64,000 nt of DNA from Holophagae bacterium (lineage in GTDB: Bacteria > Acidobacteriota > Holophagae > Acanthopleuribacterales > Acanthopleuribacteraceae). The DNA lies in assembly GCA_029263455.1 (NCBI GenBank), contig JAJCXM010000008.1:868001-932000 (forward strand). Direction: 5' to 3'. The translations under genes and the position numbers were made by a program. The notes beneath the pieces are model-generated. The model was not told the origin of the DNA. It ran no database searches and saw only the letters and a program-made list of their open reading frames with translations. Shown here in pieces: positions 2,212-36,015 of this stretch (position 1 is the first letter of the stretch; each line of letters begins with the position of its first letter).

Positions 2212-2628
2212 ATGGCATTGGACAGGGCTTCGGAACGCTTCATTCAGCAATTTGAGCTTGGAACCATTGATGCAAGTGATTTTGGGCATCGAGAACATGT
2301 GAGGCTAGCCTGGTGTTATTTGCACGCCTTCGGCATTGTAGAAAGCCTGACTCGGTTCCCGACTCATCTGAAACGTTTTGCAAAACGCGTAGGTGCGCCG
2401 AATTTGTATCACGAAACATTGACATGGGCGTTCCTGCTGATGATCAATGAACGTCAACAGTGTCAGCCAGGAATTGATTGGCAGCAATTCGTGACGCGAA
2501 ACGAGGATCTGTTAAGGTGGCCGAACCCAACATTGAGTCGCCTGTACCCACAAGATGTGTTGGAATCTGAAATTGCGCGCCGCGTTTTTGTGATGCCACC
2601 TGCGCCAGTTGAACAAGCAAGTGCATGA
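2212..2628 (+). CDS. Conserved hypothetical protein with HREHVRLAW motif
   Basis: 138 residues from an ATG at 2212, chosen because GGGAGG (2201-2206) lies five bases upstream. A longer in-frame start at 2188 would overlap the likely promoter. The N-terminal segment contains HREHVRLAWCYLH, followed by FAKRVGAPNLYHETLTWAFLLMI. This belongs to a widespread family of uncharacterised proteins with a conserved His-rich first helix (HHRDHVRLAW-like) and a conserved YHET motif. The His/Glu pattern suggests a metal- or small-molecule-binding all-helical fold, but no reaction is known to me. There is no signal peptide, so it is probably cytoplasmic. Confidence 0.7.
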   Translation: MALDRASERFIQQFELGTIDASDFGHREHVRLAWCYLHAFGIVESLTRFPTHLKRFAKRVGAPNLYHETLTWAFLLMINERQQCQPGIDWQQFVTRNEDLLRWPNPTLSRLYPQDVLESEIARRVFVMPPAPVEQASA

Positions 2629-2835
2629 GCTATCTAATGGCGCAGTCATCACATACGAACGGTGGGTGAGTGCTAAACAGCTTTCTACCATTTTCCGTAA
2701 CTCTACATATGCAGGTATGTTAGCTAATTCTCTAGTCACTTGATAATGATACGTCGAGCGATGTTGCTTGACCGCGACACCAAATGAGAGGTTAATATAG
2801 GTAACCGATTGTAAAGTTGATGTGGAGGAAACAAA

Positions 2836-3531
2836 TTGGCGTTGGTCGATTTTTCCTACGATAAACATGTCTCGCCCCACGTTTTTTTCTCAGGGCGTGT
2901 TTGTCATGATTTGAACAATATCATTACAACGGCCATGGGGGCCGTGTCGTTGCTCCAATTTAAGGCGCCCATGGAATCGACTTTTCGCGGTGAGCTAGAC
3001 CGTCTCGATCGTTCAATCGAAGCGTTAAGTCAATTTACGAAACGCATCGAACGTGTGTTCTTGGATAGTTTTGACAATCGAATTCCTTACAATCTGACAC
3101 GCCTCATTAAGATGACTATCGACGAGTTTCAGTCGCCAAAACTGGAGATTCGCTTTGATGGCGACTCGGTGCGGCCCTCAGCGATCGACGTATCGGCGGT
3201 TCAAAGTATGATCAAGGAGATCCTCACCAATTCGATAGACTCGATGGCGGGTGAGGGCGTCATTGATGTCAGTTTGAGACAGTTGGCCGCTGGTGGCAGT
3301 CATGCTTGCCAATTGACCATAGCCGATAGCGGCAAAGGCATCGCGGAGGACAATCTCAGCGAGGTGTTTGGCGCATTTAAGTCGTTCGAGAAACGCGGCA
3401 ACCTGGTTGGGTTAGGCTTAGCTTATGTGGGTAGCGTGGTCCATCATCATGGCTGGTCGATGGCGATAGAAAGTGAACTGGATAAAGGGACTAAGATTCA
3501 TATTTCCATTCCCTTAGAGCCAGCGCCTTAG
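2836..3531 (+). CDS. Soluble orphan histidine kinase (HATPase)
   Basis: 231 residues. The start is TTG at 2836, with GGAGGA (2824-2829) six bases upstream and no better alternative. A short N-terminal segment leads into an H-box, CHDLNNIITTAMGAVSLLQ, of the H-D-x-N-N type found in hybrid and NtrB-like kinases, with the probable phospho-acceptor His near residue 25. The ATPase part has an N-box (EILTNSIDSM), a G1 box (DSGKGI) and a G2 box (GLGLAYV). There is no transmembrane segment and no sensory domain, so the input is probably a partner protein or a cytoplasmic signal. No response regulator is adjacent. It converges with the exporter gene, leaving only a few bases between the stops. Confidence 0.85.
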   Translation: MALVDFSYDKHVSPHVFFSGRVCHDLNNIITTAMGAVSLLQFKAPMESTFRGELDRLDRSIEALSQFTKRIERVFLDSFDNRIPYNLTRLIKMTIDEFQSPKLEIRFDGDSVRPSAIDVSAVQSMIKEILTNSIDSMAGEGVIDVSLRQLAAGGSHACQLTIADSGKGIAEDNLSEVFGAFKSFEKRGNLVGLGLAYVGSVVHHHGWSMAIESELDKGTKIHISIPLEPAP

Positions 3532-3537
3532 CCAATT

Positions 3538-6120: not shown

Positions 6121-6227
6121 GGCAACCTAGGTGGAGAATTTCGAAGTCAGGCGCGCTGGATTCTAACAGGTCTGACTTTACCGTGCTAGGGATGCCAAAA
6201 TTGTCAATGCGCTTAGGCCACTTCAGT

Positions 6228-7991
6228 TTAGGGTTTGAAGGATATTCTAAGGCCAATCGGCGGGTCTTTGCGCATGTTTGTTAAAGCAAATGTGGCTGCA
6301 GGCAATAATTCGGATGCATACAGCTGAGCGGTCAGCACCTTTTCTGTATAAAAAACTTCGTCTGATGATTTGGACTTCTCAAGGGCAACTTGTGCCTGTC
6401 TACTTAAGTAATAACAAGCGGCCAAGTGGCTCATTGACTCTTGAAACTGGACGGCGTGATATTGCACCTGTTCCATGTCCTTGCAACTTGCAAAGAATTG
6501 GGCCGTTGCCGCGACTTCTTGGCTGGCTTTTAGCAGAGCGCTGCTGATGGCACGGAGCTCACCATCGCGTATCTCTCCCGCAAACTGTGTGATTTCAGCC
6601 AACCAATTTTTTAGGTGCAGCCCTTGGTTGCCCAATATCTTGCGAAACACCAGATCCAAGGCCTGAATGCCATTGGTGCCTTCGTAAATACTACTAATCT
6701 TTACGTCTCGCATGTATTGTTCAACGCCATATTCCTGGCAGTAGCCATAACCACCATGAGTTTGAATGGCCATTTCGGTGATTTTGAAGCCCTGGTCAGA
6801 ACCGAAGGTCTTACAGATTGGGGTTAAGAGTTCCACGTAACCCTCATATTTTTCAGCTTCGCTTTGGTGGTAGTGGGCCAAATCCAGATAAAGTGTGAGG
6901 TGGTAGAGCAAGGCGCGGCCGCCTTCTGTTAACGCTTTCATGGTGGCAAGCATGCGTCGTACGTCAGGGTGTTCGACAATTTTGAGGGAGCGGAATCCAT
7001 CTGCTGATTTACGAGACCCTTGGGTCCTTTCCTGCGCATATGCTTTAGCGGCCAAATAAGCTGCAGACCCTTGGGCAAGTCCCTGAACGCCAACTTCGAT
7101 TCGTGCTGCATTCATCATCTGAAACATATGCGCCATGCCCTGGTTGGGTTGGCCAACTAAGTAGCCTATACAGGCTTGATTGGTGCCGAAATTCATGACA
7201 CATGTGGGGGAAGCCTTAATGCCCATTTTATGTTCGATATTGCCGCATTCAACGTCATTACCACCTAGTATGCTGCCATCGTCTGCCGTTCTGTATTTGG
7301 GTACTGCGAACAAGCTCAACCCGCGTGAACCCTTAGGTGAATCAGGTAAACGTGCCAAAACAAGGTGAATGATGTTCTCTGATAAATCGTGTTCACCCCA
7401 GGTGATAAATATTTTGGTGCCACTTATAAGGTAGTGATCGCCATCCGGGATTGCTTTGGTCGTTGAGGCACCCACATCACTTCCTGCGTGGGGTTCCGTC
7501 AAGCACATGGTGCCTGCCCACTGGCCCGAATACATGTTGGGTAAGTACCTGTCTTTGAGCCAATCTGAGCCAAACGAGGCAATTAAGTTGGCCGAACCCC
7601 GCGTTAGCAGAGGCAGCATCGAAAATGAAACACAGGAACCGCACTCCAACTCGGCAACTGGCGCAGCGAAAAAATGCGGCAAGTCTGCTCCGCCGTACTT
7701 GGCCGAGGCCATCATGCCAATGAGCCCCAACTCTCGATAATCGTTCCATGCTTGCTGCATGCCGTTTGGTACCCTGACCGATCCATTCTCGAATTGACAC
7801 CCTTCGCGATCGCCACTGTCATGTAAGGGCGCTAATACCTTCTGGCTGAAGGCACTAATTTGTTCGTAAACCATACGTAATGTATCTTCACCGGCATCGG
7901 GTGAAGGGTGGTTGCCCTCGAGTTGTTGCACGCCCGGGCACTCAAACATATTGAATGCAAGGTCGCGTTCATCGATACGGTAATGGGTCAT
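6228..7991 (-). CDS. Acyl-CoA dehydrogenase, long form
   Basis: 587 residues, FAD-dependent alpha,beta-dehydrogenation of acyl-CoA. An N-terminal extension of about 60 residues precedes the helical domain. The flavin-binding beta region contains MCLTEPHAGSDVGAS and FITWGEHD. The C-terminal catalytic region has SIYEGTNGIQALD, where the Glu is in the position of the catalytic base in this family, and a further C-terminal helical domain brings the length to that of the FadE-like or AcdA long class. The ATG start has AAGGAG (7998-8003) six bases upstream. It is a second acyl-CoA dehydrogenase in the window, separate from the fadE at 23672, so its chain-length or substrate preference is probably different. 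A near-palindrome at 8015-8028 lies just upstream. Confidence 0.9.
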   Translation of the reverse strand: MTHYRIDERDLAFNMFECPGVQQLEGNHPSPDAGEDTLRMVYEQISAFSQKVLAPLHDSGDREGCQFENGSVRVPNGMQQAWNDYRELGLIGMMASAKYGGADLPHFFAAPVAELECGSCVSFSMLPLLTRGSANLIASFGSDWLKDRYLPNMYSGQWAGTMCLTEPHAGSDVGASTTKAIPDGDHYLISGTKIFITWGEHDLSENIIHLVLARLPDSPKGSRGLSLFAVPKYRTADDGSILGGNDVECGNIEHKMGIKASPTCVMNFGTNQACIGYLVGQPNQGMAHMFQMMNAARIEVGVQGLAQGSAAYLAAKAYAQERTQGSRKSADGFRSLKIVEHPDVRRMLATMKALTEGGRALLYHLTLYLDLAHYHQSEAEKYEGYVELLTPICKTFGSDQGFKITEMAIQTHGGYGYCQEYGVEQYMRDVKISSIYEGTNGIQALDLVFRKILGNQGLHLKNWLAEITQFAGEIRDGELRAISSALLKASQEVAATAQFFASCKDMEQVQYHAVQFQESMSHLAACYYLSRQAQVALEKSKSSDEVFYTEKVLTAQLYASELLPAATFALTNMRKDPPIGLRISFKP

Positions 7992-8014
7992 AGAGGGCTC
8001 CTTAGCGCAGAAAA

Positions 8015-8028
8015 TGAATCATGACTCA
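8015..8028. promoter_or_regulatory. Near-palindrome upstream of acyl-CoA dehydrogenase
   Basis: TGAATCATGACTCA is a 14-base near-palindrome (one mismatched base pair) 24 bases upstream of the acyl-CoA dehydrogenase start at 7991. It matches 10 of 14 positions of the palindrome TGAATGACCATTCA found in the fadN promoter at 20084, and it lies at a similar distance from the start codon. It could be a second site for the FadR-like repressor. The match is imperfect, so this is a hypothesis. Confidence 0.3.
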
Positions 8029-8149
8029 CTTTAACAGGATGCGAAGCACCTGTGCAATCAGTCAACGCACATGACAAAGCTTAAGAACCTGCAAACCATG
8101 GCAGGTAATTTGCGTAAGCTCCTGAACACGACTAATTCTGGAGTTCAAC

Positions 8150-10249
8150 ATGCGCCGTCTTAGCATCCTTTTCATCGCAGTATCAGCCCTTATGGCAACG
8201 GATGACATCTATTTCCTCAATCTCGAATTGACCTTTGAAGAGGACAGTGTGATTGTGGCACCTGTACCAGAATCACTTGTCAGTTACGAGAATCTGAAAG
8301 ATGAGCGTTTCGATTTAGGACGCGAAATGATGGAACTGACCTTGGATGCCCCCTTTCGTCAAACGGCATTCTTGTTTCGCACTTTGGATCGGAACCGCGG
8401 CGCAGTGCTCGGCGAATCAAGTCAACCTTTGCCGATAATGAGATTTAAGCTGGAATTGGCGTTGCGGGACCTGACTGGCGAGCCACTGGAAATGCATGAG
8501 TATGACGTAGACCTTGTCTTGTCCCCTAACGAGAATGAAGGCATGATTGTCTGCGATGACGTGACCCACACCTTTGATATCAACAAAGTGAAGAGCCCGG
8601 TCCATTATCTTGAATTCTTACGCACCGTTCTTTTTCCAAAGGGTCCTGAGAAATTTGCCAGACCGGCAACGGACGAATTCATCGTTGATCTCTATTTTAA
8701 GTGGCCCAAAGTTCTAGTTAACAATAATGATGTCCCCATATTTGATCTATTCCCGTCATTGATCCTTTGGAACAAAGGCGATGTCACTAAAGTTATGATC
8801 CATTTGGGCACCACCTATGCTTATCGCCAAGATGGGATCTGGAACTTGGTGATGTCGGATCTATTTCGGCACTATGCTCAAACTATCGAAAAGTACAGCA
8901 GCATTCTCAAACAAATCGAAGACGGCGGCGGCGATGAAGATACGATTGCTGAACTAGAAGAGTATGTCCTATTGGCGCCTGCGGATAAGAAGGCTCTGGC
9001 CCGCTTACTTGACCTCTATCTTGACTACGACATGAAGCCGGAGGCGTACAGCCTTGTGTCACGCTTTCAACCCTTTTTTGCGACCATCCGCGGTGGTCTA
9101 CAGAACAAGAAAGAGCTAGCCTCGGAAGCCCGTCGTAAACGTAATCAACTGCTAGGCAAAAGGGCTCGCTTCAAACGAGATAAGAACGTTGCACTCGAGA
9201 TTACTTCGCCAGTTGATGATGACTTAGTTACCGGTACGACCAAGCTGCAATTCACGCTTGCGCAGATTTCGAGCCCTATCCTGCAGATAGACTGTTTCTT
9301 GGATGAACAGTTGATTGCAACTTTAACGGAACCGCCATTTGAAGTTCCATTCACCGTGGATGGTGAACGCGGTAAATTGGATTTGCGTGTAGTGGCCTAT
9401 TTCGAAAACGAAACCTTTCAGCGCGATGAGGTCCGTGTCAAATCCCTCGACGTTGATACCGAAGAATACGTAAACCTAGTGGGCGTACGTGCCGTTGTTA
9501 CGCAGGGTCCGTCAAAATTCTTACTGGACCTAAAAGAGTCCGACTTCAAGCTGAAAGAAAACAAAGAGGTCCGCGAAATTCTTCATTTCAAGAAAGACAC
9601 GGCTCCATTACGCATTGCCATATTAGTAGACAATTCAATATCGATGTTCGGAGAAAAGCTCTACCGCGCTCAGTACGCTGTGCATACATTCCTATCGAAG
9701 CTGCAGCCCGAAGATCGCGCCAGTATTTACACCTTTGACAATAAGGTTTTGCGCGTGTCTGACTTAACCAATGATTTCAAATCGCTACAACGACAGATGT
9801 TTACCATGAGTCCTCAGCTGGCTACATCTCTGTATGACGCCATTTTGGTTGCCACCGATCATCTGGAAGGTCAGAACGGGACCAAAGTCATTATTGCTGT
9901 TTCAGACGGCACGGACAGCTCTTCTGCCGTGACGGATATACATATCGCGAAATCACTGCGCGGTTCGCCAGTGATGGTTTATTCCATTATTCTGCCCGGC
10001 GATTTTCTGGGTCATAGCAACCGCTCTGGAAATGTCTTTTTGCAAGAGATCGCGCGCTCTACTGGTTCGATTTCTACGCGCGTGAATAAGCTCAAAAATT
10101 TGGACCAAACCTTTGATGATATTTATCAAGAACTGAAATCGTTCTATTATTTCGATTACTACTCAAGTGTATTATCAGCAGGGGAGCGAGAAATTGATAT
10201 TGACGTATCGCGTTTGGGCGCAAAAGCCAGGTTCCGGGCTCTTAACTAA
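8150..10249 (+). CDS. VWFA-domain secreted protein (acidobacterial type)
   Basis: 699 residues with an N-terminal hydrophobic signal (MRRLSILFIAVSALMA). Residues 20-330 are of unrecognised type. Residues about 345-435 look like an immunoglobulin-like segment (ITSPVDDDLVTGTTKLQFTL). Residues 440-480 carry the VRAVVTQGPSKFLLDLKESD motif that leads into the VWFA-related domain named for Acidobacteria. The VWFA domain has a complete metal site: D494-x-S496-x-S498 (DNSIS), a Thr in ATSLYD and an Asp in SDGTDSS. Such domains bind divalent metal and mediate protein contacts. ATG is preceded by GGAG. The amidase gene begins inside its 3' end. Confidence 0.85.
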   Translation: MRRLSILFIAVSALMATDDIYFLNLELTFEEDSVIVAPVPESLVSYENLKDERFDLGREMMELTLDAPFRQTAFLFRTLDRNRGAVLGESSQPLPIMRFKLELALRDLTGEPLEMHEYDVDLVLSPNENEGMIVCDDVTHTFDINKVKSPVHYLEFLRTVLFPKGPEKFARPATDEFIVDLYFKWPKVLVNNNDVPIFDLFPSLILWNKGDVTKVMIHLGTTYAYRQDGIWNLVMSDLFRHYAQTIEKYSSILKQIEDGGGDEDTIAELEEYVLLAPADKKALARLLDLYLDYDMKPEAYSLVSRFQPFFATIRGGLQNKKELASEARRKRNQLLGKRARFKRDKNVALEITSPVDDDLVTGTTKLQFTLAQISSPILQIDCFLDEQLIATLTEPPFEVPFTVDGERGKLDLRVVAYFENETFQRDEVRVKSLDVDTEEYVNLVGVRAVVTQGPSKFLLDLKESDFKLKENKEVREILHFKKDTAPLRIAILVDNSISMFGEKLYRAQYAVHTFLSKLQPEDRASIYTFDNKVLRVSDLTNDFKSLQRQMFTMSPQLATSLYDAILVATDHLEGQNGTKVIIAVSDGTDSSSAVTDIHIAKSLRGSPVMVYSIILPGDFLGHSNRSGNVFLQEIARSTGSISTRVNKLKNLDQTFDDIYQELKSFYYFDYYSSVLSAGEREIDIDVSRLGAKARFRALN

Positions 10250-11012
10250 ATCGTGGTTATTGGGGGTTTGGCTGGCGCTCTTTGTGTCTTGCAGTGCTCA
10301 TAAAATTGAAGCTGAGCCAGACCCCCGCGACTATCGCGAGCAGCTAGCCAGTCGCCGTGCTAATGCCTCTGTGGCGCCAAATATTGATACCCGTTTTGCC
10401 ATCGAAATTGATGCGGAGCGGGTCGATTTGACACGCGAGTACTTTTACTTACATAACAGAACCTTTTTTGATGCCATGCCAAGCGGTGAAGATGCCAGTG
10501 TCTTGGCCATGATTCCCAAAGTCGTGGTTGTTCATTTCACGGCCATTCCAACACTGGAAGAAACGTTGGCCTACTTTACGCCGAACCGTATTTCATCTGA
10601 TCGTGAAATGGTCGCGGTGAACGGCGACCTCAATGTGGGCATACAGTTCATCGTTGATAAGGATGGTCAGATTTATCAGTCCTATCCAGAGAATGCGGTC
10701 ACGCGCCATGTGATCGGCTTGAATCACGTTGCGATTGGCATTGAAAATGTGGGTGAGTCTGATTTAGGCCAGCAACCAAACGGTTTGACCAAGGCTCAAT
10801 TGCAGGCAAATGTGCAGCTTATCGCGTACCTTTTAGGTAAGTACCCCACCATCGATTTCGTCATTGGGCATAGCGAGTATCGCGATTTTGAAGATCCCGT
10901 CCATCCTGGCTATGGTCTCTTCACCGAATCTTCACCAAATTATCGAACGCAAAAGGTCGATCCTGGCCCACGATTCATGCTAGAGATTCGCAAACGACTA
11001 AATGCGCCGTAA
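10194..11012 (+). CDS. N-acetylmuramoyl-L-alanine amidase, probable lipoprotein
   Basis: About 272 residues. The start is uncertain: TTG at 10194 has GGGGAG (10181-10186) seven bases upstream and overlaps the preceding gene by 56 bases, while a GTG at 10167 is also in frame. A hydrophobic segment, SWLLGVWLALFVSC, precedes a Cys in a lipobox-like setting, though Phe at -3 is atypical. The Amidase_2 domain cleaves the amide between MurNAc and L-Ala in peptidoglycan. It has the zinc ligands His in VVVHFTA, His in GHSEYR, and Asp with a catalytic Lys in KVDPGPRF. Envelope location and overlap with the VWFA gene suggest joint expression. Confidence 0.85.
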   Translation: MILTYRVWAQKPGSGLLTKSWLLGVWLALFVSCSAHKIEAEPDPRDYREQLASRRANASVAPNIDTRFAIEIDAERVDLTREYFYLHNRTFFDAMPSGEDASVLAMIPKVVVVHFTAIPTLEETLAYFTPNRISSDREMVAVNGDLNVGIQFIVDKDGQIYQSYPENAVTRHVIGLNHVAIGIENVGESDLGQQPNGLTKAQLQANVQLIAYLLGKYPTIDFVIGHSEYRDFEDPVHPGYGLFTESSPNYRTQKVDPGPRFMLEIRKRLNAP

Positions 11013-25671: not shown

Positions 25672-26814
25672 TTACTTCCAGGTTAAGGCTTGTTCTGGTT
25701 CGAGCGATGTTTCCATATTTAAGTGACCCGTCTCAAGCCACTGAGGCGCAGAGAACTGGTCAATCTGGCGAACGAAATAGGCGATATCCTTATCGGAAAC
25801 AGTTAGCGAAACCCAGCAATTGCGTTGTGTCTTTTTCGCCGCATAAAGGGCTTGATCCGCCAGATCAATCACATGTTCCCAGCTAAATTGGTCAGGCTCA
25901 CTTATTGCAAGTGGGAAACAGGAGAAACCCAAAGAACACGTTTTGTGAATGGTTATGCCGTTGCCAACCTTGAATTCATGCGACTCGGCGTTGCTGCGGA
26001 TGCGTTCTGCGATGGTTCGCCCATACTTAAGTGAAGAATTACGGCATATGACGAGAAACTCCTCGCCGCCCCAGCGCACGATGATGTCAGAATTCCGACA
26101 ACTGTCGCGGAGGATACCACTGAATTGGATGAGCACTTGATCGCCAGCGGCGTGGCCATAGGTGTCGTTCACTTGTTTGAAATGGTCGATATCCACCATC
26201 ATGAATAGCATGTCACTGTTTTCAGAGTCGGATCCAGGCGGTTTTGCATCATGGTAACGGCGGTGAACCAAGGCAATGTCATAGAGAATGTTTTGACTTA
26301 CGAATCGGCGGTTATTTAGGCCGGTCAGTGGGTCTGTTTGCGTGGCCAGTTCAAGTTGGCCATTTAAGTTTTCAAGTTGTTCATTCTTTTGGCGTATTTC
26401 CTCGAGCATGAGTTGATTAAGACGAACAAGCTCGTAGCGTTCGATGACTTTCGTCACCGAGAAGCCGATGGTATGGTCGATGTGCTCATCCTTGATCAGA
26501 TAGTCGTCCGCCCCTAAGGCGATGGCTTGTTTGACGACTTCCATCTCGTCGTTTGAAGTGAGCATCATGATGGGAATCAATATGCCTAATTCACGTATGT
26601 TAGAGACCAATTCCAACCCGTTCATGTTTGGCATATTGAGGTCAGAAATGACCAGCCCCAACCTATCGGCTTGAGCTTCTATATGCTTCATGGCCTCAAC
26701 TCCGTCACCAGCTGTGACTACTTCAAAGCCTTGTCCATGTAGAATATCGGCGATAACTTCACGAGCGAAGGCATCGTCGTCTACTAATAGAACTCTCATG
26801 CTATCGTCAGGCAA
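25672..26814 (-). CDS. wspR: Response regulator-diguanylate cyclase (WspR-like)
   Basis: 380 residues. The receiver (residues 6-120) has the acidic DDD cluster, phospho-acceptor D58 in VISDLNMP and the conserved Lys in YLIKDEH. A linker coiled coil (about 125-158) leads to a GGDEF domain with GGEEF at 249-253 and an allosteric inhibitory site, R240-NSD, five residues before it. It would make cyclic-di-GMP when phosphorylated. The start is TTG at 26814, with AGGAGG (26820-26825) five bases upstream. It is the last gene of the chemosensory operon, and it occupies the position of WspR in function, so the symbol is by analogy. Confidence 0.85.
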   Translation of the reverse strand: MPDDSMRVLLVDDDAFAREVIADILHGQGFEVVTAGDGVEAMKHIEAQADRLGLVISDLNMPNMNGLELVSNIRELGILIPIMMLTSNDEMEVVKQAIALGADDYLIKDEHIDHTIGFSVTKVIERYELVRLNQLMLEEIRQKNEQLENLNGQLELATQTDPLTGLNNRRFVSQNILYDIALVHRRYHDAKPPGSDSENSDMLFMMVDIDHFKQVNDTYGHAAGDQVLIQFSGILRDSCRNSDIIVRWGGEEFLVICRNSSLKYGRTIAERIRSNAESHEFKVGNGITIHKTCSLGFSCFPLAISEPDQFSWEHVIDLADQALYAAKKTQRNCWVSLTVSDKDIAYFVRQIDQFSAPQWLETGHLNMETSLEPEQALTWK

Positions 26815-26826
26815 CTAGTCCTCCTG

Positions 26827-28953
26827 TCATGGGATTAAGTTTTCAATCGTTTCAATGAGGCTTGTTTGTTCAAAGGCGTGTTTAACCAAATATGCGGAGG
26901 CGCCCGAATCAATCCCTTTTAAGCGGTCTTCATTGGAAGCTCTTGCCGTCAACAATATCACCGGAATATCCATTAAGGCGTCGGTCTCTTTGATTTTGCG
27001 CGTCAATTCAAAACCGTTCATATGAGGCATTTCGACATCACTGACAACCAAATCAAATTCACCTTGGATCAACAAATCAAATGCTTCGCGACCATCAGCA
27101 GCCAAATTGACCTGGTATCCGTGGGACTCCAAGATGCTTTTTTCGATTTCGCGGGTGTTAAACGAGTCGTCGACCACAAGAATTCTTGAGCGCCGGGTCA
27201 ATGATGTTTGAGGTCTAGCTGTGAAGGTGTGTTCTGTCATTTGAATGAGCACAGGAATGTTGAGTATGTTCATAAGGCTACCTTCACCGCGAATGGCAGC
27301 TCCCATTAATAGGCCTTGTGCATTAATGTGCTCGGGAATAGGGTGAACAACCACACTGTCAATGTCTTCAACCTTATCTACTATTACAGCCAGTAAGCGG
27401 CTATTTGAAGTGACAACAACCAAAATAGGCTTTTCGTCCGTACTGGGACTACTGCCAAATAGGTGTGCAAGGTCAAGGATGCGCACAATATCGTCGCCCA
27501 AACTCACAGCTTCATAGTCGACTGCATTAATAAAGCTACGACGATCGAGGCGGTGAATACTCCTAATGCCGTTGGTCGGAATGCCAAGCCGGTGTTCGCC
27601 TGACTTGATAGCCATTAACTGGATCACGGCGAGACTTTGTGGGAGTCTTATTCGAAACCGTGTACCTTGGCCAGATGAGTGATCAACGTCGATTGATCCA
27701 TTGAGTTCATGGATGATGTTTCTTCGAACGACATCCATGCCTACACCACGTCCCGACCAATCTGTAACGATTTCCGATGAACTTAAGCCCGGAGCAAAAA
27801 TGAATTCGGTACGTTGTTGCTCCGTCATTTGGTGCCAATCTTTGTCTTCAACAAGGCCAAGCTTTGTGGCCTTCTTACCTAAGCCCTCCAGGTCAATGCC
27901 AGTGCCATCATCTTCAAAACGAATCATGACCCGGCCCTGGTCAAAGGACGCCGTTATTTCAATTCTTCCAACTCTCTTTTTTCCTGCCGCTTGTCGTTGG
28001 TCTGGACTTTCTATTCCGTGCACGATCGCGTTGCGTATCATATGCTCTAGTGGCGCTTGGATTAGTTCCAGCATACGTCGGTCAAGTTCTGTATCTTCTC
28101 CCGTAATGACTAATTCGACTTCTTTTCCAAGGTTAGCCGCCGCATCACGTGCGATGCGCCTTAAAGGCTCAAAAGTCCGAGACAGCGGAATCAGTCCAAG
28201 CCGATGGGCGCCTGTCTGTAGATCAGCCGTCTTTATTTCTTGAATTTCGATGTCGTTTTTTAAGTGATTGATAACCGTTTTTAGTCGTTTGGACAAACTT
28301 TCGACCTGTTGGCGAATGGCTATCCCTTGCTCATCATCACCTACCGCTCGACACTGAGTCCTTAACGATGAAAGGGTGTGATTCAGTTCACGCAGGCTCA
28401 TTAATCTAGCCTTGATCATTTCCAAGTGATTCCATTGTTCCCCGGTAAGTTTCATGACTTCATCAACCCGTGACCGTTTAATTCTTACGGTGTCGGAGGC
28501 AGGCACGGGTTTGGCGGGCAACGATTCGGGCTCCATGTTTATAGCTTTGGGTGATTCGACACTAGCCTCAATATTCTCTAGCGATTGACGCAGGCCAGAC
28601 TCAATGGATTCGTTTACCGTAAGTTCTTGTTTATTCACCAGCAGATCAATCAAACGTTCAAATTCATCGCAAGCCGCTAACAGAATGTTGGCCAATGCTG
28701 GATTAAACACCAGCTTTTGACTTCTCATGGCCGATAACACGTCTTCAAATGTGTGTAGGAATCCGGTCAACGTTTTGAGTCCTAACATCCGCGAGGCGCC
28801 CTTAACTGTATGGATACTGCGAAAGACTTCAGCGATCACGTTTTCATTCAGGCTGTCCTTTTCGAGAAGTAAAAGACCACTCACCGCTTTGCTATGATTC
28901 TCTCGTGCTTCTTCAATGAAGCGTTTCACAAATTTGCTTCGGTCAAATGCCAC
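26827..28953 (-). CDS. wspE: CheA-like hybrid kinase with receiver (WspE-like)
   Basis: 708 residues. The HPt domain has the phospho-acceptor His48 in SIHTVKGASRMLG. Residues 155-250 form a helical dimerisation region. The ATPase has HMIRNAIVHGIESP, DDGTGI and GRGVGMDVV. A CheW-like domain follows (about 435-570). A C-terminal receiver (about 592-705) has D639 in VVSDVEMPHMNG. It lacks a separate P2 docking domain. The GTG start at 28953 is supported by an AGGAAGGG site. The receiver could act as a phosphate sink or as a relay to the cyclase. The CheA-receiver fusion is the WspE/FrzE-like type. Confidence 0.88.
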   Translation of the reverse strand: MAFDRSKFVKRFIEEARENHSKAVSGLLLLEKDSLNENVIAEVFRSIHTVKGASRMLGLKTLTGFLHTFEDVLSAMRSQKLVFNPALANILLAACDEFERLIDLLVNKQELTVNESIESGLRQSLENIEASVESPKAINMEPESLPAKPVPASDTVRIKRSRVDEVMKLTGEQWNHLEMIKARLMSLRELNHTLSSLRTQCRAVGDDEQGIAIRQQVESLSKRLKTVINHLKNDIEIQEIKTADLQTGAHRLGLIPLSRTFEPLRRIARDAAANLGKEVELVITGEDTELDRRMLELIQAPLEHMIRNAIVHGIESPDQRQAAGKKRVGRIEITASFDQGRVMIRFEDDGTGIDLEGLGKKATKLGLVEDKDWHQMTEQQRTEFIFAPGLSSSEIVTDWSGRGVGMDVVRRNIIHELNGSIDVDHSSGQGTRFRIRLPQSLAVIQLMAIKSGEHRLGIPTNGIRSIHRLDRRSFINAVDYEAVSLGDDIVRILDLAHLFGSSPSTDEKPILVVVTSNSRLLAVIVDKVEDIDSVVVHPIPEHINAQGLLMGAAIRGEGSLMNILNIPVLIQMTEHTFTARPQTSLTRRSRILVVDDSFNTREIEKSILESHGYQVNLAADGREAFDLLIQGEFDLVVSDVEMPHMNGFELTRKIKETDALMDIPVILLTARASNEDRLKGIDSGASAYLVKHAFEQTSLIETIENLIP

Positions 28954-30358
28954 GTTGTTGCCCTTCCTTGTGCTCGCCAGTCAGCCGATGATGGCAGAGA
29001 CGAACGACATCTGATTGGGTGAGCGACAAAGGAATAAGGGAGTAGGTCGTGACATCTGCCGATGAGCGGTCTAGATGCTGAAGTGTGGCTCGATACTCAC
29101 GTCGAGCAGCTTTATGTTTACCTAATCGGTAAAAGGCTTCTGCCAGTAAAAAATGTGGAAACCAGTCTGAACCTTGAATAAAGATACTTTTATGGAAACT
29201 GCGGACGGCGAATTCATGATCGCCTTGATGCTGAGCGATCATGCCCAAGAGAATGTGCGTTGCACCATTGTAAGAATCGTGGACCAGCAATCGTTGTCCG
29301 CATTCCCTAGCTTCGTCCAACTTGCCCAACTGAAACAAAATAGTAGCTTTGGTTACCTCGTGCGCGGGCGATTGATCTGTTTCGCTGATATTTTCTAAGA
29401 GTTGAAGCGCTTCATCGTAGCGCCGCTCCTGTGCCAGATCTTGCACCTGTTCCAAGGATTTACTTGGCAAATTGAGAGCGATCGGCGGACTCTCTTGTAC
29501 TACTCTTGGAGGGCACTTTAGTTCTACTCGGCGAGTTTTAGGAACCGTGAATTTTGGCCGCGGATTGGGTACTCGAGCAAAATAGTACAGTCCGTCGCGA
29601 TTGAGGAGTATTAAGCTCTGTGGGTGGGTTGCCAGTGTTTCCGTTGTGCCGACAACCAAGACGCCTTGATCGTTTAAAACACGTTCGATCAGACTCATTA
29701 CTTGTATGCGTGTTTGCTCGTCAAAATAGATGGAAACGTTTCGATACAAAACAAAATCTACAAGACCAACTTGTGCTGGCCAATCGGCGTCAAGCAAATT
29801 GATTTCTTTGAATGTCACCTTTCTGAGCATGTGTTCTTTTAGTTGCAGGGCGTTTACTTGGTCAGGGACGAAATATTTGGGGACAAGATCAGATTTGATG
29901 TTTCGTAGTGATGATTTCCGGAAATGACCACTGCGGGCACTCTCTAGTGCAACAGGATCAATGTCGGCACCTAATATTTCAATATAGTTAGGCCAGGACG
30001 GATCAAAAGATTCGTCGAATAGCATGGCGAGGGAATAAGGCTCTTCGCCAGTTGAACAACCTGCGCAGAGGATTCGGATGCGGCGGGTAGGTTCGGCATT
30101 TCTAATCGTCTTAACCATTTGCAGAATGAGTTCCAAATGACCCAGTTCGCGAAAAAAGTAGGTCTCTTTGACGGTTAATTGTTCAACAAGCGACGTCCAT
30201 AATTTGCCGCCCGCTTCGATCTCGCAAAAATATTGCTCGGCAGTAAGTCCCCTGTTCTTTTGCTGACGTTCAACGATTTCGCTCAGGTAGGCGTGTTTGG
30301 CCGGCTCAAAATACAGGCCACAACGGCTGCGAATTAACTCGGCGAAACGGTATATCAT
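28943..30358 (-). CDS. wspC: CheR methyltransferase with TPR tail (WspC-like)
   Basis: 471 residues. The N-terminal CheR part contains QLTVKETYFFRELG, the equivalent of the conserved TxNET-FFRE substrate region. The SAM site is ILCAGCSTGEEPYSLAM. The C-terminal third, from about residue 305, contains TPR repeats, as in WspC and FrzF, where they mediate protein contacts. It would methylate Glu residues of the MCP at 32211. It overlaps the CheB gene by four bases and the CheA gene by eleven, so translation is coupled. Confidence 0.88.
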   Translation of the reverse strand: MIYRFAELIRSRCGLYFEPAKHAYLSEIVERQQKNRGLTAEQYFCEIEAGGKLWTSLVEQLTVKETYFFRELGHLELILQMVKTIRNAEPTRRIRILCAGCSTGEEPYSLAMLFDESFDPSWPNYIEILGADIDPVALESARSGHFRKSSLRNIKSDLVPKYFVPDQVNALQLKEHMLRKVTFKEINLLDADWPAQVGLVDFVLYRNVSIYFDEQTRIQVMSLIERVLNDQGVLVVGTTETLATHPQSLILLNRDGLYYFARVPNPRPKFTVPKTRRVELKCPPRVVQESPPIALNLPSKSLEQVQDLAQERRYDEALQLLENISETDQSPAHEVTKATILFQLGKLDEARECGQRLLVHDSYNGATHILLGMIAQHQGDHEFAVRSFHKSIFIQGSDWFPHFLLAEAFYRLGKHKAARREYRATLQHLDRSSADVTTYSLIPLSLTQSDVVRLCHHRLTGEHKEGQQRGI

Positions 30359-31359
30359 CCGTTGCTCCCGAGCGACAGCAACTTGGCTGCGATTTCATCC
30401 AAAGGCAGAATCCAACGGGCCGCGTTACTTTCAATGGCACGCCGAGGCATGCCAAACACGACAGAACTGGCCTCATCTTGAGCGATCGTCAACCCACCAG
30501 CGGCTTTAACAGCGGTTAAACCTCGTGCGCCATCGTCTCCCATGCCAGTAAGAACAATGCCGATAGTTTCCGCACCAAGTGACTTGGCGACGGACGTTAA
30601 GAAGAAGTCGCACGAAGGTCGATAAATGTCTGTGTGACTGAAACTGCGTAGGCTAAATTTCCCTTCTTGTAGTTCCAGGTGTGCATGATCGGGTGCCAGA
30701 TAGATGTTGCCAGATTGTGGCTGTACACCTGCTTCGGCGACGGACACCTTAAATGAGGTCACATCGTTAAGCCAATCTGACATTCCTTTGATAAACCCGG
30801 TACCAATATGTTGGACGACCACGATTGGGATCGGGTAGGGGTTTGACAGTTGATTGAGAATTTGAAGGATCGCTTTAGGGCCACCGGTGGATGCGGCGAT
30901 GGCGACCATTTGGTATTGTTTGGCCTGCGTTTCGGCCGTATTGGACCGACTGCGGTGTCGGATCACTTTGACAGCACTTATCAATCGTAACCTGCGCTCA
31001 AAATCAGACTGCTCCTGTCTGTCGATATCGTCAAGTGCCATAACCTCAAGAGCGCCCCTCGAAATGGCTTCGATTGCGGTAACGGTCGGTTGATCACAAG
31101 AGATGGCAAGAATAGGTACTGGGGTATTGGCCATGATGGATTCAATGGCATTCAATGGCTCTTCACTATCGGCAGATAATTCTAGAATGATTAAGGTAGG
31201 CTGCAGATATTCGAGTAGTCGGGTCATATGACTACCCATATCGACGAAGCCAGCAAACTCGATGTCCGTACCTCGTAACTTCTTCATGATGGCTGATCTG
31301 AGAGAGAGTCCTCGTTCCACAACAGCGATCCTGAGTGAGTTCGCATCGTTCGTGATCAT
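30355..31359 (-). CDS. wspF: CheB methylesterase with degenerate receiver (WspF-like)
   Basis: 334 residues. The C-terminal esterase domain is intact, with S157 in AIAASTGGP, H184 in VVQHIGTGF and the acidic residue of TGMGDDGARG (D275). The N-terminal receiver-like domain is degenerate: the usual acidic pair is E15-R16, the phospho-acceptor position reads LIILELSAD with E60 in place of Asp, and the conserved Lys is L109. It therefore probably cannot be phosphorylated. The Glu could mimic an active state, or activity could be controlled by contacts. It lies between the short CheW-like gene and CheR with four-base overlaps. Confidence 0.82.
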   Translation of the reverse strand: MITNDANSLRIAVVERGLSLRSAIMKKLRGTDIEFAGFVDMGSHMTRLLEYLQPTLIILELSADSEEPLNAIESIMANTPVPILAISCDQPTVTAIEAISRGALEVMALDDIDRQEQSDFERRLRLISAVKVIRHRSRSNTAETQAKQYQMVAIAASTGGPKAILQILNQLSNPYPIPIVVVQHIGTGFIKGMSDWLNDVTSFKVSVAEAGVQPQSGNIYLAPDHAHLELQEGKFSLRSFSHTDIYRPSCDFFLTSVAKSLGAETIGIVLTGMGDDGARGLTAVKAAGGLTIAQDEASSVVFGMPRRAIESNAARWILPLDEIAAKLLSLGSNG

Positions 31360-31724
31360 ATGAGCACAAGTCGCTGAAAATCGATGACGGGAACCGCCAA
31401 ATCGTCAATCAAAAAAAGCGCCCAAACGCAAGATATCTGGAAGCTCTTTGACCAAAGTTGAGGGAGTAGGAATAGCTTCTCGATTGGCAGCTGCAGGATG
31501 TCTCTAATGTGATCTACTGCCACGGCGCGTGAATTCCCTCCTCGGATTTCCAAGAGAAACGCTGGAGGTTCCAAGGGTTCTTTGGCGCCGAATAGAGGGA
31601 TGATGGATAGCTCATGGGGCGCACTTGTGTGTCGGACTCCATCTAGCTGGTCGATCATCGTTGCAAGTGTCACCCCATTAGAATCGAATAGGCACAACCC
31701 GACTGTTTGTGGATCATTTTCCAT
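31356..31724 (-). CDS. Short CheW-like protein
   Basis: 122 residues, with no signal peptide. The middle and C-terminal parts match the second half of a CheW fold (VAVDHIRDILQLP, ALFLIDDLAVPVIDFQRL), but the N-terminal strands of a full CheW are weak or missing (NDPQTVGLCLFDSNGVTLATM). It could be a diverged scaffold protein in the place of WspD, or a remnant. It overlaps the CheW gene by 11 bases and the CheB gene by four, which suggests it is still translated. No confident family call is possible without structural prediction. Confidence 0.6.
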   Translation of the reverse strand: MENDPQTVGLCLFDSNGVTLATMIDQLDGVRHTSAPHELSIIPLFGAKEPLEPPAFLLEIRGGNSRAVAVDHIRDILQLPIEKLFLLPQLWSKSFQISCVWALFLIDDLAVPVIDFQRLVLI

Positions 31725-32214
31725 CTGCTAGCTCCGCAAATACGGACGATAGGTTGATAATCATGACCGATTGACTTGACCAGCTGAATTCACCCTTTAG
31801 ATGGCGCCCGACCGGACTTTTTGGGGCTCGAGGTGTGGTGTGTATGTCAGAATCCCGCACTTTAAGGATATCGAGGACGTCATCAACCATCATAACGGTT
31901 TGCAGGCCAGTTACCGCAATCAGCAGACCCTTGGTTTGATTCTCTTTTTGGGCTTGTAACCCTAGGAATGACTTTATGTTGAATACAGTCTCGATGCTAC
32001 TTCGCACATTTATGACGCCCAAGAAATGGACGGGTGAGCCTGGAACGGGATAGACCTTTTCGACGGCTACAACTTGCAAAACGTCGGCAAGAGGAAGAGC
32101 GAAAAGAGATTCGCCCAGCCGAATAATGATGAATTCCGACTCCTTAGTTTCTTCAAGTGACTGGGATGGTCGACCTGCGAGTGATTGACGCAAGTCGTCG
32201 ACGGGGTTTTTCAT
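31714..32214 (-). CDS. wspB: CheW coupling protein (WspB-like)
   Basis: 166 residues, with a full CheW domain from about residue 25 (EFIIIRLGESLFALPLADVLQVV, GVINVRSSIETVFNIKSFLG, VDDVLDI). It would link the MCP to the CheA-like kinase in a signalling array. The start overlaps the MCP stop by four bases. An N-terminal extension (DDLRQSLAGRPSQSLEETKE) is not part of the domain and has no clear function. The gene is second in the operon. Confidence 0.85.
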   Translation of the reverse strand: MKNPVDDLRQSLAGRPSQSLEETKESEFIIIRLGESLFALPLADVLQVVAVEKVYPVPGSPVHFLGVINVRSSIETVFNIKSFLGLQAQKENQTKGLLIAVTGLQTVMMVDDVLDILKVRDSDIHTTPRAPKSPVGRHLKGEFSWSSQSVMIINLSSVFAELADGK

Positions 32215-34268
32215 TCCAACTTGAACCTATCAACTTGGTCCTTGAGTTTTCGCGAAAGCTCTTTGAGATCGTTGGCGATTTGTTTGGTGCGATTGATAGA
32301 GTCTGCTGTGTTATTGGCGCCTTGCGCAATTTCACGCAGTGATACGACGACCTGGTCATTGGCGATCTTTTGTTGTTGCGTCGACATCGATATTTGGCGG
32401 GCGGCATCAGAGGTAGAGCGTGCGTCTTCCACTAAGCCGGTTAACGTGTTGACGGTAGCGACTGCCAAGTCGCGGCCGCCCCGGATACCGTTTGAACCTT
32501 TTTCAGAAGCCATCACCAATTGGCTGACGGCGGTTTGTATTTCGTGTACACGTTCTTTGATCTCGCTGGTAGACTCCATCACGTTATTAGCCAATCTGCG
32601 AATCTCCATGGCCACGACGCCAAAACGACGACCAGCATCTCCGGCACCGGAAGCTTCGATTGAAGCGTTGAAAGCGATCAGTTTGGTTTGATCTGCAATA
32701 CCGCTGATGAGGTCGATTACCTTTGTGATTTCTTGGGAATTCTTGCCTAAATCAACAATCTTATTAATGCTTTCTTCGTTATTGGCATTGATCTCGTCCA
32801 TCTTCGCCATAAGGTTTTGGACAATCTCTGAGCCTGATTCCGTCTCGGCTAGGTTAGTAGAAGCGATCTCTAATACTTGGTTTGAGTTCTCCGCTATTTG
32901 CTTGGATGTCGCGGAAAGCTCTTCGATAGTGGCTGTAATCTCTGTGACCGATGAGGCTTGTTCTGTGGCAATTCCCATCTCTTCAGTTACCGCACCAAAC
33001 AGCGCTGTCGCCATATGATCTACATCAGTTGTGGCGCTTGTTACACCTTTCAATGTGTCACGTAGCTGTTTAACACTGCTTAACATGGTGCGCCTTAGTA
33101 TCTCTGCTTCGTCGCCACCTATTCCGTCGAAGTTTTCATTGGAACTGAGGTCGCCGATCGCCATTAAACGACTGAGCTCAAGTGAGGCTTTCAGAGGTCG
33201 TACAATTTGATTGGCAGATACGACCATAAGAATTGAGCCCAATCCTCCAACCAGCAACGCAGTGAGCACCATTAACCAGAGCGTATTTCTCTTGTTGCGT
33301 TGATCGCTTCGGTTGGAGTGCATCACCAATAAGGAGCCCACTTCGCCGTTGATTTCATAAAGCGGGTACAGAGCTTGAGTGAAGGATTCGTTATTAATAG
33401 TGGTTTCTTGCCAAAGTAAACGGGACAGGCGATTATCCAGATCTTGCTTATCCCACTGATTTTTCAGGGAATCCAGGGTTTTGTCTGAAAGGCGTTCGAT
33501 GTACCTAAATTCACCAGCCAACAAAACAGAGCCATGATAAAAATTGACATGTGTATTACTGGCTTTTGAAAGTTGATTAGCGTAGTCGTCGGTCACAAAT
33601 GTTGTACCCACAATTGTGGCTATCTTCTCAGGTCTATCGTCAAAGACGTCGCGGACGGGAATCACGATGGTCTGCGCTAGGCCCATCCCATAGCGAGAAT
33701 ATCCTGAGGACTGCCCGTTCTCGACGATTTTTAGTGTGAGTTGGATGTTTTCCGGCAGCTCGGAAAAACTCAAATATAGACTCTTGCCATCTGTTACATA
33801 TCTAGACCCCGTCGAGAAGCCTGTCATTTGTTGGCGACGATCAAAAAAGGCCAAAAGCTGATTCTTGTGACCAAAAATACCAATTAGATCAAAGTCGCCT
33901 ACATGTGATGCATTTTTGATTTTTTTGCCCAAATCACGACACAGTTCCTGACTACTCTCGTCCAAGTCACTTCCGTCAAGATCGGCATAGGCTCCATGGA
34001 GAACGGATGCATTGAAGACCACGTCATCGTCGCTCGCGACTAATTCGATGATTTTACGTTTGGTTTCGGCTTTGGTGTCCAGGTCCAGCAATGCAAGCTC
34101 AGTCGCTGTGCTCAAGCGGTTGTGAGCAGCTTTCGAAAACCAAGTGTTCGAGCGAACGACCATCACTGAAACAGTGGCAAGTAAAACGGCGGCGATCACA
34201 GAGATGCCAGAGAAGAGAATTCGACCACGGATTCCAAGTGACTGATATCGGCGCGAAAATGTTCCCAC
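32211..34268 (-). CDS. wspA: Methyl-accepting chemotaxis protein (WspA-like)
   Basis: 685 residues. A membrane helix at about 17-38 (ILFSGISVIAAVLLATVSVMV), a periplasmic sensor (about 40-325) and a second helix at about 329-352 are followed by a HAMP domain and a signalling domain (about 410-680). The hairpin tip region is degenerate relative to E. coli (IADQTKLIAFNASIEASGAG, then VVAMEIRRLANNV). The sensor is larger than the four-helix bundle of Pseudomonas WspA and may be a Cache-like module, so the stimulus could differ. It is the first gene of the operon. The GTG start has AGGAG seven bases upstream. Confidence 0.88.
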   Translation of the reverse strand: MGTFSRRYQSLGIRGRILFSGISVIAAVLLATVSVMVVRSNTWFSKAAHNRLSTATELALLDLDTKAETKRKIIELVASDDDVVFNASVLHGAYADLDGSDLDESSQELCRDLGKKIKNASHVGDFDLIGIFGHKNQLLAFFDRRQQMTGFSTGSRYVTDGKSLYLSFSELPENIQLTLKIVENGQSSGYSRYGMGLAQTIVIPVRDVFDDRPEKIATIVGTTFVTDDYANQLSKASNTHVNFYHGSVLLAGEFRYIERLSDKTLDSLKNQWDKQDLDNRLSRLLWQETTINNESFTQALYPLYEINGEVGSLLVMHSNRSDQRNKRNTLWLMVLTALLVGGLGSILMVVSANQIVRPLKASLELSRLMAIGDLSSNENFDGIGGDEAEILRRTMLSSVKQLRDTLKGVTSATTDVDHMATALFGAVTEEMGIATEQASSVTEITATIEELSATSKQIAENSNQVLEIASTNLAETESGSEIVQNLMAKMDEINANNEESINKIVDLGKNSQEITKVIDLISGIADQTKLIAFNASIEASGAGDAGRRFGVVAMEIRRLANNVMESTSEIKERVHEIQTAVSQLVMASEKGSNGIRGGRDLAVATVNTLTGLVEDARSTSDAARQISMSTQQQKIANDQVVVSLREIAQGANNTADSINRTKQIANDLKELSRKLKDQVDRFKLE

Positions 34269-34466: not shown

Positions 34467-35219
34467 ATGAAAAGTCTGTACTTCTATTTATTGACCGCCT
34501 TAATACTTGCTCTAGCTTTTGCCATGTTTTTTCGTCAATCTAATCGTCAAGTTGAATCTGCCATGCCAATTGACGCATTTCGCTTGGCTACGTACGAAGT
34601 GCCAGCTAACCTGAGGCACCAATTACGTGAACTAATGAATCAACATTTTAGAGCTGTAAGTGGTGACGGGCCTTCTATTGCTCGGGTTGAAATGTTGCCT
34701 GGCGGTCAGTTGGCGCTGATTGGGCCTGTGGAAGTTCAAAAAGGCTTTGCCGAAGTTGTCAGCAAACTACAGACGGTTGAGCCTAGTGTGACCTTAAATT
34801 ATGAGCTGGATTGTTGGGTTGTGCTTGGTCCCGCTGATTTGTGGGCGACAAGAAGTGCTGATTTGTCGAAGATGGAGTTAGAAACTTGGCTGGAGCAATT
34901 GGGTGCAGAAGTTGAGGTCATGGAGCATCTGCGCCTGATTGGTGCCGAAGGAAGCCGCACGCAAATTATCGGCACGCTCTTTCGGGCCGAACCAGAATTA
35001 GCTATGAATGGCCAACAATGGGTTGGGGAACTTGAAATTATTGGAACTGGCGAATATGGTGTCAGCACTGGTTTATCAACGCAATTAGCGCTTTCGCCAA
35101 ATCGACCCGCCCTGATTGGCGGTTCCTCGATTGATTATCATGGCAATGACAAACGCATCCTCGATTTATTGGCGCGTCAAGGTCAAATCTACTATATCGT
35201 GCGCATTCAGAACGCATAA
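34467..35219 (+). CDS. Membrane-anchored hypothetical protein upstream of ECF sigma gene
   Basis: 250 residues. An N-terminal helix (SLYFYLLTALILALAFAMFF) anchors or exports the protein. The segment IARVEMLPGGQLALIGPVEV and the following helix EVVSKLQTVEPSV resemble the N-domain fold of secretins and STN modules, but the match is weak. No catalytic motif is visible. The ATG at 34467 has GGAGG upstream. The next gene, an ECF sigma factor, starts 20 bases after its stop, so the two are probably co-transcribed. A role in signal perception for the sigma factor is inferred from position only. Confidence 0.6.
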   Translation: MKSLYFYLLTALILALAFAMFFRQSNRQVESAMPIDAFRLATYEVPANLRHQLRELMNQHFRAVSGDGPSIARVEMLPGGQLALIGPVEVQKGFAEVVSKLQTVEPSVTLNYELDCWVVLGPADLWATRSADLSKMELETWLEQLGAEVEVMEHLRLIGAEGSRTQIIGTLFRAEPELAMNGQQWVGELEIIGTGEYGVSTGLSTQLALSPNRPALIGGSSIDYHGNDKRILDLLARQGQIYYIVRIQNA

Positions 35220-35239
35220 ATGGATGGGAGCTTAATCGC

Positions 35240-35719
35240 GTGGACTCCGGCGAGTTTGACGCTCTGTATACGGAGCACAGTCGTGCACTCTTCAACACGG
35301 TATACCGGTGGCTGTGGCATGTTGAAGATAGCGAGGATGTGGTACACGAAGCTTTTGCACGCTTTTGGGAAAATAGGTTCGACGAGTCGATTTCCAATCG
35401 AAAGGCCTACCTCTTTCGCATGGCGTTGAATTTGGCCTCAAAGCGGAAACGTTGGCTAAGAATCCGCCATTTTTTCGATCTAAAAAAGGTGGAACTGTAC
35501 GTCTCTGACGCTGAGGAGACGCTCTTGGGTCGCGAAAGGGCTCTTCATATTAATAGAGCGATCGAGCGCCTTCCGGAAAAGCAAAAATCCGTTCTGTTGA
35601 TGATCCGCTTCGCAGAAATGAGTTATTCTGAGGTCGCTCAAGTGCTTGGTATATCGGAAGGTACGGTCGCTTCGCGTTTGCACCATGCGATAAAGGCTTT
35701 GAAAGAGGCGTTGCCATGA
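35240..35719 (+). CDS. ECF-type RNA polymerase sigma factor
   Basis: 159 residues. Region 2 contains FDALYTEHSRALFNTVYRWL and VEDSEDVVHEAFARFWEN. Region 4 contains RLPEKQKSVLLMIRFAEMSY and EVAQVLGISEGTVASRLHHA, a typical helix-turn-helix. The start is GTG at 35240 with GGGAG about 10 bases upstream. The stop overlaps the next gene's ATG by four bases, which points to coupled synthesis with a candidate anti-sigma protein. The genes it controls cannot be seen from this sequence. Confidence 0.88.
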   Translation: MDSGEFDALYTEHSRALFNTVYRWLWHVEDSEDVVHEAFARFWENRFDESISNRKAYLFRMALNLASKRKRWLRIRHFFDLKKVELYVSDAEETLLGRERALHINRAIERLPEKQKSVLLMIRFAEMSYSEVAQVLGISEGTVASRLHHAIKALKEALP

Positions 35720-36015
35720 ATATTGACGACCAAATTGTTGACATAAAACCACCAGATGGTGGACTGGCTAGAGCGCGTGCTTATCTTGATCGTGATCGTT
35801 TAGGTAGCCAGGTAAGAGCTATTTTTGTGACTGTGGCAGCCATGATATTAATCATCGCAGGTGTTGTTATTACGAATAGACAAATTCCGGACCCCATCCT
35901 TTCCGATTGCGCTCTTTTGGCCTTAAGGGCCCCATCACCAACAGAAAATATCTACCAACCACTGATCATCGATTCAACGGAACACGCTGTATACATGGTG
36001 GCTCGACTCCGCTGA
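35716..36015 (+). CDS. Small single-helix membrane protein, candidate anti-sigma factor
   Basis: 99 residues. A short N-terminal domain of about 37 residues (ARARAYLDRDRLGSQ) is followed by one membrane helix (AIFVTVAAMILIIAGVVI) and a short periplasmic tail of about 45 residues. It overlaps the ECF sigma gene by ATGA. This topology and position fit a minimal anti-sigma factor that holds the sigma factor at the membrane, but it has no recognised zinc-binding or FecR motif, so the role is inferred. Confidence 0.6.
   Translation: MNIDDQIVDIKPPDGGLARARAYLDRDRLGSQVRAIFVTVAAMILIIAGVVITNRQIPDPILSDCALLALRAPSPTENIYQPLIIDSTEHAVYMVARLR

Follow-up and report, generated by a model that had tools for sequence, protein, structure and literature searches.

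Which chemosensory family does a seven-gene operon in the genome of a Holophagae bacterium belong to, and what does it control? The operon lies in a stretch of 64,000 nucleotides (hereafter, the window), and a first-pass annotation had read it as a Wsp-type system with a reshuffled gene order in what might be an Acidobacteriota-like host. The host is indeed a member of the Acidobacteriota (family Acanthopleuribacteraceae), and the ORF positions and Pfam domains bore out the seven coupled genes in the order that had been given, namely MCP, CheW, short CheW, CheB, CheR, CheA/REC and REC-GGDEF. All seven ORFs are intact and lie on the minus strand, the first starting at 34268 and the last ending at 25672; neighbouring ORFs overlap by 4-11 bases, except at one junction with a gap of 12 bases. 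Pfam analysis found MCPsignal, CheW, CheB esterase, CheR with TPR, Hpt-HATPase-CheW-REC and REC-GGDEF architectures, and the 122-aa ORF had no Pfam or NCBIfam match. We consider it probable that the operon encodes a stand-alone one-receptor pathway of the Halomonas cluster-2 type, which would control c-di-GMP through an output cyclase recruited from the host lineage. The protein interactions, phosphotransfer and physiology described below are what we infer from gene content, domains, residues and trees.

Table 1. Positions of the operon genes and their domains in the window.
Feature	Position	Strand	Basis or remarks
Receptor (MCP), 685 aa	32211..34268	-	two hydrophobic segments, periplasmic sensor, signalling domain with QTKLIAFNA hairpin tip
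Orphan periplasmic sensor domain, about residues 32-327	33288..34175	-	without relatives in any search
CheW, 166 aa, full coupling protein	31714..32214	-	Pfam CheW 1.9e-20
Short CheW-like protein, 122 aa, CheW3/FrzB type	31356..31724	-	hhalign profile match
CheB methylesterase, 334 aa	30355..31359	-	Pfam CheB_methylest 7e-59
Degenerate receiver of CheB	30985..31359	-	phosphorylation residues substituted
CheB esterase domain	30370..30912	-	Ser-His-Asp triad present
CheR methyltransferase with C-terminal TPRs, 471 aa	28943..30358	-	Pfam CheR 6e-47, TPR matches
CheA with C-terminal receiver, 708 aa, Hpt-HATPase-CheW-REC	26827..28953	-	Pfam
Predicted output diguanylate cyclase REC-GGDEF, 380 aa, C-terminal tail	25672..26814	-	Pfam; GGEEF active site, RNSD inhibitory site

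To place the core of the operon, we constructed a CheA tree (51 rows) and a tree of the concatenated CheA, CheB, CheR and receptor signalling domains. The Wsp references were four loci (L123-L126) found via WspR, with genes in the A-B-C-D-E-F-R order; L034 is a Halomonas plasmid cluster, and the Holophagaceae label of L035 is a reading from kinship. In the CheA tree, the window grouped with L035, L034, a Chromatiaceae MAG and Treponema (support 98/92), apart from the E. coli and Pseudomonas Che CheAs. The four Wsp CheAs formed a separate clade, so that the CheA phylogeny went against the Wsp assignment, and a grouping of Wsp with the window was rejected (AU p 0.033). The concatenated tree again placed the window with the Halomonas cluster 2, Holophagaceae and Treponema clusters (support 100/99), and clades joining the window with canonical Wsp (AU p 0.00012) or with Frz (AU p 0.00018) were rejected; the groups put to the AU tests were partly suggested by the preceding trees. 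The trees contain long branches, including that of the window CheA (1.76 in the CheA tree), and the position of the window within the cluster-2 clade is weak (84/52 in the concatenated tree). By these phylogenies, the core is a member of the Halomonas ‘chemosensory cluster 2’ family and not a reshuffled Wsp operon. Its MCP-CheB-CheR-CheA order recurs in the Halomonas and Holophagaceae clusters (L034 and L035). Besides the window, a close CheA relative was found in one of 396 Acidobacteriota genomes (G009, 1249 bits, itself within the query profile), and the next match scored 535 bits.

Cluster 2 of Halomonas titanicae comprises an MCP, CheB2, CheR2 (with TPR), CheA2 (with REC), CheY2, a cyclase with an Hpt and two receivers, CheW2 and a truncated CheW3, and its authors noted a resemblance to Wsp with a different gene order (PMC5907407). 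Similar and circularly permuted clusters have been reported in Proteobacteria. The window shares with cluster 2 the core order, the TPRs of CheR, the C-terminal REC of CheA, a CheW followed by a truncated CheW and a cyclase as output, and the cluster-2 core proteins are the nearest to those of the window in the trees. However, cluster 2 runs MCP-CheB-CheR-CheA-CheY-cyclase-CheW-CheW3, whereas in the window the CheW pair directly follows the MCP and there is no CheY. The cyclases also differ, being Hpt-REC-REC-GGDEF in cluster 2 and REC-GGDEF without Hpt, of apparent host-lineage origin, in the window. Unlike cluster 2, the window has a degenerate CheB receiver and a sensor without detectable similarity.

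The 122-aa protein had initially been equated with WspD. We compared it by hhalign with a profile of seven short CheWs from other loci (L034, L035, L044, L045, L048, L049 and the FrzB of L067, a Pyxidicoccus frz locus), which was built without the window ORF. The match scored 95% (E 3e-8), compared with 0.8% against an ordinary CheW profile and no more than 1.6% in any of 20 shuffles; the profile of the short group itself matched the CheW profile at 97.5%. In the first six of these loci the short CheWs are ORFs of 122 to 160 aa placed after CheW, and FrzB is likewise placed in the frz locus. In the alignment, the G-V-x-N-x-R-G stretch, which is CheA-binding in CheW, is absent from the window protein and most of the group, and corresponds to the strands absent in FrzB and CheW3. 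FrzB is known to lack the CheA-binding strands and to act on receptor clusters (PMC6952110). By profile and alignment, then, the 122-aa protein belongs with the truncated CheWs of the CheW3/FrzB type and is not a WspD; Wsp has two full CheWs (WspB and WspD). Single-sequence structure prediction of the protein reached a pLDDT of 48, too low for a usable fold. FrzB has been described as restricted to Cystobacterineae (PMC4546325); despite this reported limit, truncated CheWs of the FrzB type adjoin CheW in several phyla (the six loci above).

The receiver of CheB showed an alteration that the first-pass annotation had missed. Its acidic pair DD is replaced by ER, the phospho-Asp by Glu and the Lys by Leu, and its Pfam score (14 bits) falls under the cut-off; the esterase retains its full Ser-His-Asp triad. 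Given that such a receiver cannot be phosphorylated, demethylation would lie outside the kinase feedback, and the CheA-to-CheB feedback should have been lost, as in Myxococcus FrzG, whose receiver degeneration has been published (PMC4546325). The residues of the other enzymes are conserved: the catalytic R, D and Y of CheR are retained in the alignment, and H48 and the receiver residues D595, D596, D639, T669 and K691 of CheA are invariant. Pfam found no P2 domain in CheA. The phospho-Asp was missing in 3 of 72 CheBs compared, namely those of the window, L036 (S. meliloti pSymA) and L114. The degenerate receivers of L036 (11095-12159) and L114 (14989) accompany intact esterase triads, and these losses are apparently independent. 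Separately, in all four WspF receivers (L123-L126) the conserved Lys is replaced by T or I and the phospho-Asp is present.

These features introduce the question of whether the operon is a Frz-type system wired to a cyclase. Frz shares with the window a FrzB-type short CheW (the FrzB of L067 lies among the short CheWs), a CheA with REC, a CheR with TPR and a degenerate CheB receiver (PMC4546325, PMC6952110). However, FrzG has lost the acidic pair and retains the phospho-Asp that the window has lost; therefore, the two receiver losses look independent. Frz also has a cytoplasmic receptor, the FrzZ output and another gene order, whereas the window has a membrane receptor and no FrzZ, and the core tree excludes Frz as reported above. 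We therefore regard a Frz origin as improbable.

Next, we consider the operon in the context of the host genome. Two other members of the family, Sulfidibacter corallicola and Acanthopleuribacter pedis, are flagellated (PMC8841776); the host genome, which is 95% complete, yielded no FlhA-family (FHIPEP) protein of flagellar export. Its single MCP lies in the operon, as do its two CheW domains, one in the only free CheW and one in CheA. A second CheB domain occurs elsewhere, in a 1004-aa open frame with a weak CheR match adjoining it. The operon is the sole chemosensory system of the genome. A flagellar chemotaxis system was considered and rejected, on the missing FHIPEP and on the placement of CheA outside the E. 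coli and Pseudomonas Che proteins. No CheW domain was found in the same-genus genome G001, and other members of the family have 8 to 16 CheW matches each. On the basis of G001, the genus seems to have lost chemosensing except for this operon. The degenerate CheB receiver and the missing CheY might then be marks of an operon that is itself decaying, in line with the CheW-less congener, the missing FlhA and the long branches. However, the seven ORFs are intact and tightly coupled, and the catalytic residues of CheA, CheR, the CheB esterase and GGDEF are all present, so we think decay unlikely and favour a functional cluster-2-type pathway.

The receptor has two hydrophobic segments (residues 11-31 and 328-353), which delimit about 296 periplasmic residues, compared with about 158 in canonical WspA. 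The sensor of the WspA in L124 matches 4HB_MCP_1, whereas that of the window has no Pfam match. The initial description of a large periplasmic sensor instead of a small helical bundle was therefore correct, as was that of a different sensor on an operon feeding c-di-GMP, given the REC-GGDEF cyclase. No relatives of the sensor were found in Pfam, in the other 395 Acidobacteriota genomes, in plasmids or in the PDB, and its hhalign scores against the Halomonas and Holophagaceae sensors were no better than those of shuffles. The structure prediction that had been proposed for it was of low confidence (single sequence, pLDDT 34). The signalling domain showed a clearer affinity: its hairpin has 34-35 of 52 residues identical to Halomonas, Holophagaceae and Treponema, compared with 26-28 of 52 to WspA, and the tip sequence QTKLIAFNA is common to the cluster-2 clade and absent from WspA and Frz. 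In the receptor, 147 residues follow the tip, an informal measure of its length against the 40H class of cluster-2 receptors. The Halomonas cluster-2 receptor reportedly binds purine derivatives.

We also analyzed the origin of the output cyclase. It has an intact receiver, a GGEEF active site and an RNSD inhibitory site, its REC-GGDEF layout is that of WspR, and WspR is its best PDB match. However, its GGDEF domain is nested within a clade of cyclases from the class of the host (support 100/99), and groupings with the cluster-2 cyclases (p 0.009) and with WspR (p 0.0005) were rejected. The C-terminal tail (R-N-x-W ... T/S-S-L) is common to the host-class cyclase clade and was not seen in WspR or the cluster-2 cyclases. 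REC-GGDEF cyclases of Acanthopleuribacteraceae (G004, L155) share this tail, and the G004 protein is 40% identical to the window cyclase over the full length. In G004, the gene follows an ORF of 952 aa that has a weak CheA/REC-type match, and no chemosensory genes were found in the stretch around it. The host genome contains 23 GGDEF domains. Given that the GGDEF domain nests in the host-class cyclases, apart from those of cluster 2 and from WspR, a native cyclase of the host lineage has apparently replaced the output gene.

This bears on the kinship with Wsp (L123-L126; PMC8552884), of which the gene classes, the non-flagellar operon and the cyclase output stand, and the core clade, the short CheW and the cyclase family do not. 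That the operon is Wsp proper, only with its genes shuffled and its sensor changed, is very improbable, because, for all the shared gene classes, CheR-TPR, CheA-REC and a REC-GGDEF output matched best in the PDB by WspR, the AU tests separate both core and cyclase from Wsp, and there is no WspD, no 4HB sensor, no phosphorylatable CheB receiver and no wspA-B-C-D-E-F order (as in L124 and L125). Although published work confines Wsp to beta- and gammaproteobacteria (PMC8552884), complete Wsp operons with the canonical gene order occur on plasmids of Alphaproteobacteria, in L125 (Mesorhizobium japonicum pMLb, 2554-10954) and L126 (Novosphingobium humi, 2633-10939), one of them conjugative.

In the cluster-2-type pathway that we propose, the periplasmic sensor would bind an outside signal, and the receptor, via the full CheW, would set CheA autophosphorylation. 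Phosphorylated CheA may then have two phosphate acceptors, namely its own receiver, probably acting as a sink, and that of the REC-GGDEF protein. The REC-GGDEF protein would dimerise and synthesise c-di-GMP, and filling of its inhibitory site would end the synthesis. Because the short CheW is predicted to bind receptors and not CheA, its part would be to shape the receptor array or to spread it, in the manner of FrzB. Receptor methylation would be set by CheR-TPR and CheB, with demethylation free of kinase feedback. The native cyclase would have taken the place of a parent-type Hpt-REC-REC-GGDEF enzyme plus CheY. More tentatively, we suggest that the pathway is modular, with an esterase cut from kinase feedback and an exchanged native cyclase, so that its sensor, its adaptation arm and its output each evolve on their own, and that the FrzB/CheW3-type CheW is a general array-shaping part and not a myxobacterial speciality; this broader view is possible but somewhat doubtful.

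The assignment would bring the Acidobacteriota into the cluster-2 chemosensory class, which was described in Proteobacteria, provide a likely case of output-gene replacement within a chemosensory operon, and link FrzB with the Halomonas CheW3 and the short CheWs of several phyla. As the sole chemosensory system of a genome with a single receptor, in which the search for a flagellar export gene was negative, the operon also offers a clean case for asking what purpose adaptation serves with a seemingly non-phosphorylatable CheB.

The exact seven-gene layout is known from one genome only. The G+C content of the operon (0.46-0.50) is like that of the window (0.47-0.51), so that its base composition gives no sign of recent transfer, and a promoter scan gave no signal above chance. 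The operon is flanked on one side by a convergent acyl-CoA dehydrogenase-like gene and on the other (34467-36015) by a divergent gene, small ORFs and a sigma-70-family-like ORF (35240-35719), with efflux-like genes beyond them, all named from their translations.
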